Positions 14,556 through 26,235 of a DNA stretch of 64,000 bases are shown here, in pieces (the first letter of the stretch is position 1; each line of letters starts with the position of its first letter). The translations under genes and the position numbers were made by a program. Source of the stretch: Flavobacteriaceae bacterium (GTDB lineage: Bacteria > Bacteroidota > Bacteroidia > Flavobacteriales > Flavobacteriaceae); the NCBI GenBank assembly GCA_028280265.1, contig JANQMD010000044.1:37466-101465 (forward strand), written 5' to 3'. The notes beneath the pieces are model-generated. The model saw nothing but the letters and a program-made list of their open reading frames with translations. It searched no databases and had not been told where the DNA came from.

Positions 14556-14589
14556 TGTCATGCTGAGCTTGTCGAAGCATAGTCGAAGT
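14556..14589. repeat. Dispersed repeat (gtcatgctgagcttgtcgaagcatagtcgaag)
   Basis: Shares the ctgagcttgtcgaag core with 5576 and 25393. Confidence 0.85.
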
Positions 14590-22072: not shown

Positions 22073-22606
22073 ATGACTAAGAAAGAGATAAAAGTAGCAG
22101 TTGTAACCACTGTCATCAGTGTTAGTGGTACAGCAATTTATGATTTTATAAAAGAGAAGCCTGTGTTCTCTTCTCTATGGAATAGTGTAAAATGGATTTG
22201 GACTACTGTTTTTGAGTTTGAACTGAAGTTATGGTATTTTTTGCTAGGGTTAGTCATTTTTGTTACTATTAAAAGGACTATAAAATCTAAGAAGATCGAT
22301 ACTGTTATTATTCCTAGTGAAGAGATGATAGATTGGTTAATGTATAAGGAAGATACAATTGATAGTATAAAATGGAAGTGGGATTGGATAAAAAATCCAG
22401 TAGATGGTAATTGGAATGCCAAAAATATTCAACCCATTTGTAATAAATGCCAAACTAAGATGCATCTTTCTAAAGGAGTTTGGTATGATTTAAATTCTGA
22501 ATGTCCAAGATGTGATAACCAATACCGTAATCTAAAAGGGATAGAAAAGATAGAGTCCATTATTATTGATAATGTACAAAGAGGTTTTTATAAATCTAAA
22601 ATTTAA
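22073..22606 (+). CDS. Hypothetical membrane protein with zinc-ribbon-like motif
   Basis: TM helices; CNKCQTKM...CPRCDNQY. Confidence 0.6.
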   Translation: MTKKEIKVAVVTTVISVSGTAIYDFIKEKPVFSSLWNSVKWIWTTVFEFELKLWYFLLGLVIFVTIKRTIKSKKIDTVIIPSEEMIDWLMYKEDTIDSIKWKWDWIKNPVDGNWNAKNIQPICNKCQTKMHLSKGVWYDLNSECPRCDNQYRNLKGIEKIESIIIDNVQRGFYKSKI

Positions 22607-22623
22607 TAAACTTCATTAAATAA

Positions 22624-23841
22624 ATGAATTTCGAATACACACAAAAATCAAAAGACTTACAAGCTAAACTCAACGCATTTATAGAAGAGCACATCGTTCC
22701 TGTAGAAGCTGAGTTTTATGCTTTTCAGCAAAATCCAGAAAATCTTTGGAAACGTTGGTCCAAAACAGAAGAACTCAAGCAGAAAGCCAAAGAGGCTGCC
22801 TTGTGGAATCTTTTTTTACCCAAAGATTATGGCGATTTAAGTCCTGGGCTCACCAATCTTGAATATGCACCCTTGGCTGAGATTATGGGAAAACGTATTT
22901 GGATCTCAGAAATATTTAACTGCTCGGCTCCCGATACAGGAAACATGGAAGTATTGGCAAAGTACGGAAGTGATGCTCAAAAAAAACAGTGGTTAGAACC
23001 GCTTATGAACGGAGAGATTCGTTCTGCTTTTTTGATGACAGAACCCGAAGTAGCTTCTTCTGATGCAACCAATATTGAGACATCGATTGTTTTAGAGGGA
23101 GACGAGTATGTGATCAATGGAAGAAAATGGTGGTCGAGTGGAGGAATGGATCCGCATTGTAAAGTGGCCATTGTCATGGGTAAAACAGATGCCAATGCAC
23201 ATCGCCATCAACAGCAAAGCATGATTTTAGTGCCCATGGACACCCCAGGATTGGAGATCATTCGTCCATTGTCTGTATTGGGCTTTTACGATTCGCCAGA
23301 GGGGCATGCAGAGATTAAACTCAACAATGTAAGAGTTCCTAAAGAGAATTTGATTTTAGGAGAGGGAAGAGGTTTTGAAATCGCTCAAGGGCGTTTAGGT
23401 CCAGGGCGAATTCACCACTGTATGCGACTCGTAGGAATGGCACAATATGCACTGGAGATAATGTCGCAACGTACCTTAGAACGCGAAGCTTTTGGTAAAA
23501 AGTTTTACGATTTTAGTAGCATGCGACAAGACATTGCCAAATCGCAATGCGAAATTGAGCAAGCTCGCTTGTTAACGCTTTCAGCAGCTGATAAAATGGA
23601 CAAAAAAGGAAACAAAGAAGCCAAGGATTTGATTGCTATGATTAAAATTGTAGCACCTAATATGGCCATGAATGTAATTGACAGGGCGATTCAAATTTTA
23701 GGAGGCAAGGGAGTAGGTCCCGATACTCAATTGGCACACTATTATGCCATTGCCAGAATGTTGCGTTTGGCAGACGGACCCGATGAAGTGCATATGTACC
23801 AATTAGGAAAAAGCTTGATTAAAAAATACGGAAAGGGATGA
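22624..23841 (+). CDS. Acyl-CoA dehydrogenase, ACAD10/11-like
   Basis: [44 protein letters not shown]. Confidence 0.93.
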
Positions 23842-24929
23842 GTGAGACCTCAAATCAACAAGTACGAAAAGGAGAAGAATTACCCGAAGGAAAACTCAAG
23901 GAGTTCCTACTAAAGAATGAATTGATCAATTCAATAGAGAGTGAACTGTTTGTGAAGCAATTTACACATGGGTATTCCAACTTAACCTATTTATTGACGA
24001 CAGAAGATCGAGAGTTTGTACTGAGAAAACCTCCCATAGGAGCCATCAAGAGAGGTCATGATATGAGTCGCGAATACAAGGTGCAAAGTGGTGTGCAAAA
24101 AGGATTCTCCAAGGTTCCCAAGATGTTTGCTTATACAAATGACGAATCCATTCTAGGAAGTGAGTTCTACCTCATGGAAAAAGTAAATGGCATCATTTTA
24201 AATTACAAGGAAGCAAAAAAGAGAAATATTGCACCCGAACAATACAAAGTGATTGCCAATTCGTGGTTAGACACTTTTGCAGAATTACATCAGTTGGATT
24301 ATGAAGCAGTTGGACTTTCTGATTTAGGAAGACCAGAAGGCTATGTAGAGCGTCAGGTAACGAATTGGGGAAAACAATATCTAAAGGCTGCGACCGAAGA
24401 TGTTTCTGCTGCAAAAGAGGTCATGCAATGGATGGAAGAAAATCAACCCAAAGCCTATGAACATTGTTTGATTCACAACGATTATAAATACGATAACGTA
24501 GTATTTGCCGAGCCTGTCCTGAACGATGTCAAAGGAACAAGTTGGACAGAAATCACCGCAGTCCTTGATTGGGAAATGGCAACTTTAGGGGATCCGTTAA
24601 TGGATTTGGGAACTTCACTAGGATATTGGACAGTAACATCCGATCACGATTTTGTGAAACAAGGCATTCCTTCACCTACGATATTTGAAGGAAACCCCAT
24701 TCGAAGTGAGATTGTAGAAATGTATGCGAATAAATCTGGGAGAGACGCCCAAAATATTGTCTTTTATTATGCCTTTGGATTGTTTAAGATCGCAGTAATT
24801 GCACAGCAAATTTATTATCGTTATAACAAAGGCCTCACCACAGATCCGCGATTTGCCAATTTAAACAAGGCATCAGAATTGTGTTGTAATTTGGCTATGA
24901 AAGCAATTCAAACAAAACAAATAGATTAA
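23838..24929 (+). CDS. Phosphotransferase (aminoglycoside phosphotransferase-like) family protein
   Basis: [14 protein letters not shown] and [21 protein letters not shown] overlap with the preceding ACAD gene. Confidence 0.92.
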
Positions 24930-24987
24930 GGTGTCTGAGCGGAGTCGAAGACACCATTTAAGGTAGTTTCGACTCTGTTCAATCACC
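24930..24987. repeat. Composite repeat, left copy flanking the small ORF at 25015
   Basis: ggtgtctgagcggagtcgaagacacc...tttcgactctgttcaatcacc; same outer ends as 25383-25462. Confidence 0.8.
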
Positions 24988-25014
24988 TTGCTATTATTAC
25001 ATAAATATAATATT

Positions 25015-25380
25015 ATGAACCTAAACCTAGAAGGAATAGAAAAACTAGAGTCTTTTGATGACAATGTCCCTATTTTTATGTTAAACTATCTCAATTATAA
25101 GGATATTGTTGAAGAGACAGGAAAAACAGGAGCAGAAACTTATGATGAATACTTAATAGAGGCTGCTGCTTTTTTCGAACAACTCGATGCTAATGTTGTT
25201 TTTAAAGGAAGACCTCAAGGAATTATTTTAGGTCCATCTGAAGAAGAGTTATGGGACGAGATTCTCATTGTAAAATATGTCAACAAGTATGAGTTTTTTA
25301 AAATTTTTCAAATGGAAGGTTACCCCTTAGAATTGAGAGCTTCGGCATTGTCTGACTCTAGACTGATATTTTGTGAATAA
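25015..25380 (+). CDS. DUF1330-like small protein
   Basis: VPIFMLNYLNYKDIVEETGKTGAETYDEYL...GIILGPSEEELWDEILIVKY; start trimmed to MNLNLEG. Confidence 0.65.
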   Translation: MNLNLEGIEKLESFDDNVPIFMLNYLNYKDIVEETGKTGAETYDEYLIEAAAFFEQLDANVVFKGRPQGIILGPSEEELWDEILIVKYVNKYEFFKIFQMEGYPLELRASALSDSRLIFCE

Positions 25381-25382
25381 AA

Positions 25383-25462
25383 GGTGTCTGAGTCGTCATG
25401 CTGAGCTTGTCGAAGTATAGTCTAAGACACAATCAAAGTGATTTCGACTCCGCTCAATCACC
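25383..25462. repeat. Composite repeat, right copy with a nested ctgagcttgtcgaag element
   Basis: ggtgtctgag[tcgtcatgctgagcttgtcgaagtatagtc]taagacac...tttcgactccgctcaatcacc. Confidence 0.8.
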
Positions 25463-25479
25463 AAAATAATAGAATACGT

Positions 25480-26235
25480 ATGCAAGTAAAAAACAAAGTT
25501 GTCATTGTAACAGGAGCAGGTTCTGGAATTGGAAGAGCTACTGCACTGCACTTTGCTCATTTTGGAGCCAAAGTGATTGTATCAGACATTAACTTAGAAA
25601 AAGCACAAAAAGTTTCCGAAGAAATTGTAACAAATTTTGGAGAATCGCTACCTATAAGAGCAAATGTTGCCAAATATGAAGAAGTAGAAAATCTTATTCA
25701 GCATGCCGTTACGGCTTATGGTCAATTAGATGTAATGGTGAATAATGCTGGAATTGGCCCAAAGAAATTGCTCAAAACAGCAGAATATACCTTAGAAGAT
25801 TGGGACAGTGTCATTGCCGTCAATCAAACTGGTGTGTTCTACTGCATGAAATTGGCTTTGCAACAAATGATGAAACAAGGATTTGGAAATATTGTGAATG
25901 TAGCTTCTTTAGCAGGCTTAAAAGCATCGTTGAATAATTTGTCTTATTCGGCAAGTAAGTTTGCGGTGGTAGGAATGACAAAATCAGCTGCTTTGGAATA
26001 TGCCAAAACTGGCATTCGGATCAACGCAGTATGCCCAGGCTACACAGAGTCAAATTTACTGAGTCAATTATTGTCTGCTCGTCCCGATATGGATGATTTG
26101 TTAAAAGCAGTCATTCCCATGAAACGCTATGGAGATGCCAAAGAAGTAGCAGATGCCATTGTATGGTTAGCATCGGATCAAACAAAGTTCATTACAGGTC
26201 AAACCATCACCATAGATGGCGGAACCTCATTGTAA
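25480..26235 (+). CDS. SDR family oxidoreductase
   Basis: VTGAGSGIGRATA, NNAGIG, YSASKFAVVGMTK; start trimmed to MQVKNKVV. Confidence 0.93.
   Translation: MQVKNKVVIVTGAGSGIGRATALHFAHFGAKVIVSDINLEKAQKVSEEIVTNFGESLPIRANVAKYEEVENLIQHAVTAYGQLDVMVNNAGIGPKKLLKTAEYTLEDWDSVIAVNQTGVFYCMKLALQQMMKQGFGNIVNVASLAGLKASLNNLSYSASKFAVVGMTKSAALEYAKTGIRINAVCPGYTESNLLSQLLSARPDMDDLLKAVIPMKRYGDAKEVADAIVWLASDQTKFITGQTITIDGGTSL

Follow-up and report, generated by a model that had tools for sequence, protein, structure and literature searches.

Two homologous repeats stand on either side of orf121, a small gene within an operon of the 64,000-nt stretch of DNA analysed here (the window), and this arrangement raises the question of whether the repeats are the ends of a unit that carried the gene into the operon or whether gene and repeats have separate histories. 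A first, sequence-only reading had seen a resemblance to a mobile gene cassette interrupting an operon. On the basis of relatives and genome-wide repeat searches, we are highly confident that orf121 is instead an old, normal member of the operon, which is of a fatty-acid type and belongs to marine flavobacteria.

The repeat pair around orf121

The left repeat spans 58 nt and the right one 80 nt, as seen by sequence inspection (Table 1). Homologous flanks in direct orientation around a small ORF, as initially described, were confirmed in coordinates and sequence: an unchanged AAGGTGTCTGAG stands at both 24928 and 25381, and over 33 nt the right ends (24955-24987 and 25430-25462) share 79% identity. 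The right copy indeed contains a complete nested element: GGTGTCTGAG is followed there by CGTCATGCTGAGCTTGTCGAAGTAT and then by AGTCTAAGACAC, whereas the left copy shows CGG in place of CGTCATGCTGAGCTTGTCGAAGTAT. Both repeats consist of two hairpins that face one another, built to the same plan, and the left one reads GGTGTCT-GAGCGGAGTCGA-AGACACC, 6 nt, GGTAGT-TTCGACTCTGTTCA-ATCACC. The left element (62 nt) folds as a single long hairpin with -34.5 kcal/mol, compared to -12.5 +/- 2.7 for shuffled sequences (z = -8.2), and its structure exceeds chance; the right dimer, which is interrupted, has a weaker fold (z = -2.1). The core of the nested element is also found at window position 14565, un-nested and with a TGTCATGC flank.

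Table 1. Operon genes and repeat elements at the orf121 locus (window coordinates).
Feature	Position	Strand	Remarks
Acyl-CoA dehydrogenase (ACAD), like the ACAD domain of ACAD11	22624..23841	+	2wbi E 2e-135
APH-family kinase, like the ACAD11 kinase domain	23838..24929	+	PF01636 E 2.7e-41; 8v3v E 6e-45
Left REP dimer, APH-orf121 spacer	24930..24987	.	Hairpin A facing B; cores at 24937(+) and 24968(-); fold z = -8.2
REP monomer A	24930..24955	+	Stem GGTGTCT/AGACACC around GAGCGGAGTCGA
REP monomer B	24962..24987	-	Decayed core (2 mismatches), imperfect stem GGTAGT/ATCACC
orf121, DUF1330-like, dimeric alpha+beta barrel fold, native operon gene	25015..25380	+	Best ORF reading, 121 aa
Right REP dimer, orf121-SDR2 spacer	25383..25462	.	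Element nested in the first hairpin's loop; un-nested counterpart in L108
Nested CGTC-tagged REP	25394..25419	+	CGTCATGC TGAGCTTGTCGAAG TAT
REP monomer of right dimer	25438..25462	-	Exact core TTCGACTCCGCTCA, stem GTGAT/ATCAC
Short-chain dehydrogenase SDR2, downstream operon gene	25480..26235	+	PF13561 E 3.6e-68

orf121 and its operon

The description of the product as DUF1330-like stands by profile and by fold, and is marginal by direct Pfam comparison. The family profile matches RPA0582, which we take to be a DUF1330 protein, with E 1.1e-15, and the structure model (pLDDT 94) matches the RPA0582 structure in Foldseek with a TM of 0.85; an earlier model from 8 sequences (pLDDT 51) was set aside. 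Direct matches to DUF1330 (PF07045) were found in 3/8 homologues with a best E of 0.0094, and the window's own orf121 protein gave no significant direct Pfam match. By sequence and fold, the protein thus matches the DUF1330 family.

The ACAD and APH proteins of the window match the two halves of ACAD11, an enzyme that phosphorylates 4-hydroxyacyl-CoA and then eliminates the phosphate (PMC12440821, PMC11342911). A comparable gene set is described for the lva operon of P. putida, which encodes a kinase (LvaA), the small protein LvaB, an ACAD (LvaC) and an SDR (LvaD) (PMC6692424). As in lva and in mammalian ACAD10/ACAD11, kinase, ACAD and SDR occur together here; their genes are adjacent, and the small-protein gene adjoins the kinase. 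In position, orf121 thus lies where a small LvaB-like partner would be expected. LvaB is presumably a DUF6285 protein, and if so, the DUF1330-like orf121 product belongs to a different family; no DUF6285 protein was found in the window's genome. Region 22624-26235, with its split ACAD10/11-like kinase and dehydrogenase and the DUF1330-like protein between kinase and SDR, is by its sequence a possible 4-hydroxyacyl-CoA catabolic operon in Flavobacteriaceae, and associates the DUF1330-like protein with that kinase and dehydrogenase.

Besides, the SDR1-Acd2 spacer contains orf177 (in 22073-22606), which shows weak zinc-ribbon matches and no tblastn match in 45 homologous operon loci. In the sister locus L095, this spacer holds a different gene of 237 aa, whose product presumably resembles a VIT1-type membrane protein. 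orf177 is a better candidate than orf121 for a gene inserted into the operon.

Inheritance of orf121

For synteny, we read the operon in 13 congeners chosen by a strong APH orthologue. In seven of them, orf121 lies between APH and SDR2, in spacers without this REP, and in L037, L039 and L040 it is tightly packed into the operon. It was lost from five others, and the sixth (L041) keeps a relic in place, as its spacer holds the C-terminal orf121 fragment NLNIEYPEESRSIALSNSRLIFCK*. Among the five, L038, L042 and L043 have clean junctions of 5-10 nt, and L035 and L036 carry unrelated palindromes at the junction. Gene-less relatives with one repeat copy, as sought in a check of the cassette reading, were therefore not found in this set.

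An alignment-based profile search extended the comparison to 32 loci of Flavobacteriaceae (Polaribacter, Tenacibaculum, Pelagihabitans, Spongiivirga, Eudoraea), and a single-protein query of the genome contigs gave no matches. As these loci were selected for carrying the gene and seven of them duplicate the congener set, they inform on position and not on universality. The order APH-orf121-SDR2 is seen in 31/32, the exception being L101, where APH was not found by tblastn comparison. Spacers in the 31 syntenic loci are often only 2-30 nt long, and the REP core occurs in just two of them (L095, L108).

Across the genus, 23/99 sampled members have a match, four of which are remote. In the midpoint-rooted operon tree, orf121 is present on both sides of the root and the absences fall within one clade, a pattern of loss rather than gain; the patchy presence follows from these losses. 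A further operon tree, which places L095 as the sister of the window, replaced one with partial or mis-matched loci, in which L107 and L036 formed an artefactual pair. The orf121 tree is weak, and by the AU test (p 0.17) it is not in significant conflict with the operon topology. The orf121 of the window is fast-evolving, and its own tree lacks the operon clade, a difference that is not significant. Since the gene is missing from 6/13 congener operons, a gain by transfer at the base is formally conceivable, in an event that would predate these repeats.

Taken at face value, the homologous flanks in direct orientation and the absence of orf121 from six of the 13 congener operons would fit a mobile single-gene cassette, with the two composite repeats as ends of the unit that brought the gene into the operon. 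However, relatives that lack these repeats have the gene at the same place, with spacers down to 2 and 7 nt, and a relic of it persists in L041. orf121 is also single-copy in its genome, in which no other gene is bracketed by the same repeat ends, and identical cores occur at dozens of other genomic loci, mostly not paired around a gene. A cassette or compound transposon is recognised by absence from the site in relatives and by presence elsewhere with the same ends, and orf121 does not show this pattern. We regard a cassette as extremely improbable, and the proposed interruption of the operon falls with it, as the same operon site is occupied in repeat-free relatives. The sequence-only reading had named presence at the same locus in all relatives regardless of repeats as the finding that would speak against it; position and independence from the repeats agree with this, and universal presence does not.

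A dispersed REP family with a conserved core

The repeats belong to a family with the core TGAGC(GGA/TT)GTCGAA, of which the genome has 42 or more exact copies and reversed-pattern controls none. In the 3.32-Mb genome (63 contigs), TGAGCGGAGTCGAA occurs exactly 15 times and TGAGCTTGTCGAAG 27 times, the reversed patterns 0 and 0 times, and the loose pattern TGAGCN(1-8)TCGAAG gives 81 matches versus 11 in controls. As short imperfect palindromes in many dispersed copies, the elements are REPs by definition; the mainly extragenic position that belongs to this definition was checked for the two dimers of the locus. In 66 non-redundant elements, Watson-Crick pairing at the three stem positions beside the core reaches 0.97/0.85/0.88, compared to 0.78/0.40/0.31 with permuted flanks. 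As pairing lies above that of permuted flanks, the short stem is variable yet complementary around a constant core, with pairing above chance limited to about 3-4 stem positions beside it. A CGTC/TGTC tag at -7/-8 is present in 28/66 elements; the nested element is tagged, and hairpin A is not clearly so.

Among the closest known repeats are the CGTC-tagged REPs (Di Nocera et al., 2013; PMC3733652), which are short, dispersed, CGTC/TGTC-tagged palindromes known from Bacteroidetes, form dimers, lie in some cases inside larger palindromes and have no dedicated transposase. In contrast to these, it is the loop-proximal core TGAGC..GTCGAA that is conserved here, the outer stem varies and the tag is confined to the 28/66; the defining stem of 8-9 bp, whose positions 1-2 are complementary A-T and whose loop measures 4-5 nt, was not found. 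In the dimers, two opposed monomers lie a few nucleotides apart and can fold into one long hairpin, as in REPINs and BIMEs, and the left dimer does form such a larger hairpin (-34.5 kcal/mol). In contrast to REPINs and BIMEs, however, there are few dimers per genome, and no cognate RAYT flanked by the same REPs was found. A strict dimer pattern occurs in 8/99 genus genomes, a rarity that makes dimer abundance unusable as evidence, and is absent from the window's own genome because the second core on the left has two mismatches and the first core on the right is interrupted. A literature search with the core sequences as letter strings found no paper.

At L008 (G000:C35:13030), a hairpin with a T run behind it (aaaaaagccactggttac...gtacagtggcttttttt) carries a TGAGCGGAGTCGAA core in its loop, which looks as if a REP had either inserted into an intrinsic terminator or turned into one.

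Probable history and possible role of the dimers

We consider it very probable that REP dimers were inserted independently into both spacers of a native operon gene. orf121 would be an ancestral, vertically inherited gene of the Acd-APH-DUF1330-SDR operon of Flavobacteriaceae, whose two spacers would have been colonised separately and late by dimers of the dispersed family; the first hairpin of the right dimer would then have taken up an additional CGTC-tagged REP in its loop. Mobility would lie with the 25-60-nt repeats and not with the gene. In L095, the sister of the window, the left spacer holds a dimer with similar stems and both cores flipped, and another kind of palindrome occupies the right spacer. 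In L108, from the neighbouring clade, the left side is empty and an un-nested dimer lies on the right, 4 nt behind the stop codon of orf121 compared to 3 nt in the window. In other lineages, other palindromes occupy the same spacers (L034, L036, L097, L099, L100), and the operon spacers look like repeated landing sites.

Within this explanation, one dimer could have been inserted once and then been copied across orf121 by local rearrangement or gene conversion. The stems GGTGTC and ATCACC match between left and right although stems vary elsewhere, and TTTCGACTCNGNTCAATCACC finds an exact fit nowhere else in the genome. But the same stem pair occurs one-sided in L108 (right) and in L095 (left, with flipped core orientations), so that the dimer type looks recurrent, and the sequence between and around the stems differs; copying seems to us unlikely, if worth keeping in mind. 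Rather improbable is that the spacer hairpins are not selfish insertions but a selected regulatory RNA for inter-cistronic processing or stabilisation. While the strong fold of the left dimer and the unrelated palindromes in the same spacers of the five lineages named above would suit such a role, many relatives with spacers of 2-30 nt have no hairpin, the same elements occur at unrelated loci, and Rfam gave no match. Independently inserted dimers may nevertheless have effects, since in the mRNA they form strong hairpins between the cistrons, with no U run at the end, and may therefore tune 3'-end stability or downstream translation.

REP nesting in REP loops and a proposed mobilisation

Repeat-into-repeat nesting, which had also been proposed for the right copy, recurs in the genome. 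Both halves of an outer REP surround 11/66 elements, with about 4 expected for independent left and right halves (odds ratio 15, Fisher p 5e-5, an optimistic value, as we chose the outer-half motifs ourselves after examples had been seen). Outer flanks also pair better than permuted flanks (4 of 5000 permutations). REPs inside palindromes are already published for A. variabilis, T. roseum and H. neapolitanus (PMC3733652), and these cases are loosely similar to the REP-into-REP-loop nesting described here.

Several further nests were seen. L090 (G000:C27:4628) is apparently triple nested, with ATGTCATACTGAGCCTGTCGAAGTATTG enclosed by TTGCACTGAG and TCGAAGTGTA and these in turn by TGTCATTCTGAG and GCGAAGAATTTCTCA. 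In the spacer upstream of SDR2, L097 and L100 have a hairpin of the GCGTTAGGG type whose loop is filled by a TGTC-tagged element; the GCGTTAGGG...GAACGCC repeat, present in several species overall, occupies the same site in L036 and L099 with an unfilled loop. At the Y1 transposase locus (see below), a TGAGCTTG element lies inside the loop of one flanking palindrome.

Mobilisation of REPs is generally attributed to Y1/HUH transposases that work in trans on hairpins of single-stranded DNA. The sole Y1/HUH transposase gene of the genome (C30:72120; L073 1900-3260, G000:C30) has palindromes of the GCGCGGAT type on its flanks, and the loop of one of them holds a TGAGCTTGTCGAAG element. We considered these flanks as members of the TGAGC family and rejected this, because they belong to another palindrome family, with a TGAGC element nested in one of them; a transposase for the TGAGC family was not found in the genome. 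The Y1 protein resembles RAYT/TnpA-REP subclass 2.6 of Bacteroidetes (PMC6006769) in its WQ and YIHQNP motifs and its flanking palindromes, but its HUH motif is SHMH instead of NH[LIV]H, and the flanks are of another family. CGTC REPs in general have no assigned transposase (PMC3733652). Insertion of TGAGC elements would proceed via a single-stranded intermediate with a trans-acting Y1/HUH transposase, a step that we infer, since the only candidate has flanks of another family.

The analysis removes a false mobile-gene claim from this locus, whose true mobile units are the REP repeats, and its remaining interest is the repeated loop nesting. It is conceivable, though on balance doubtful, that CGTC-tagged REPs of Polaribacter-type flavobacteria preferentially enter the apical loops of existing REP hairpins, between TGAGC and GTCGAA, giving nests up to three deep. 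The design of a conserved core with a variable stem, together with loop nesting, is a testable hint that hairpin loops are the chosen target, and if this were true, folded single-stranded REPs would be the real target of an undescribed REP mobilisation system.
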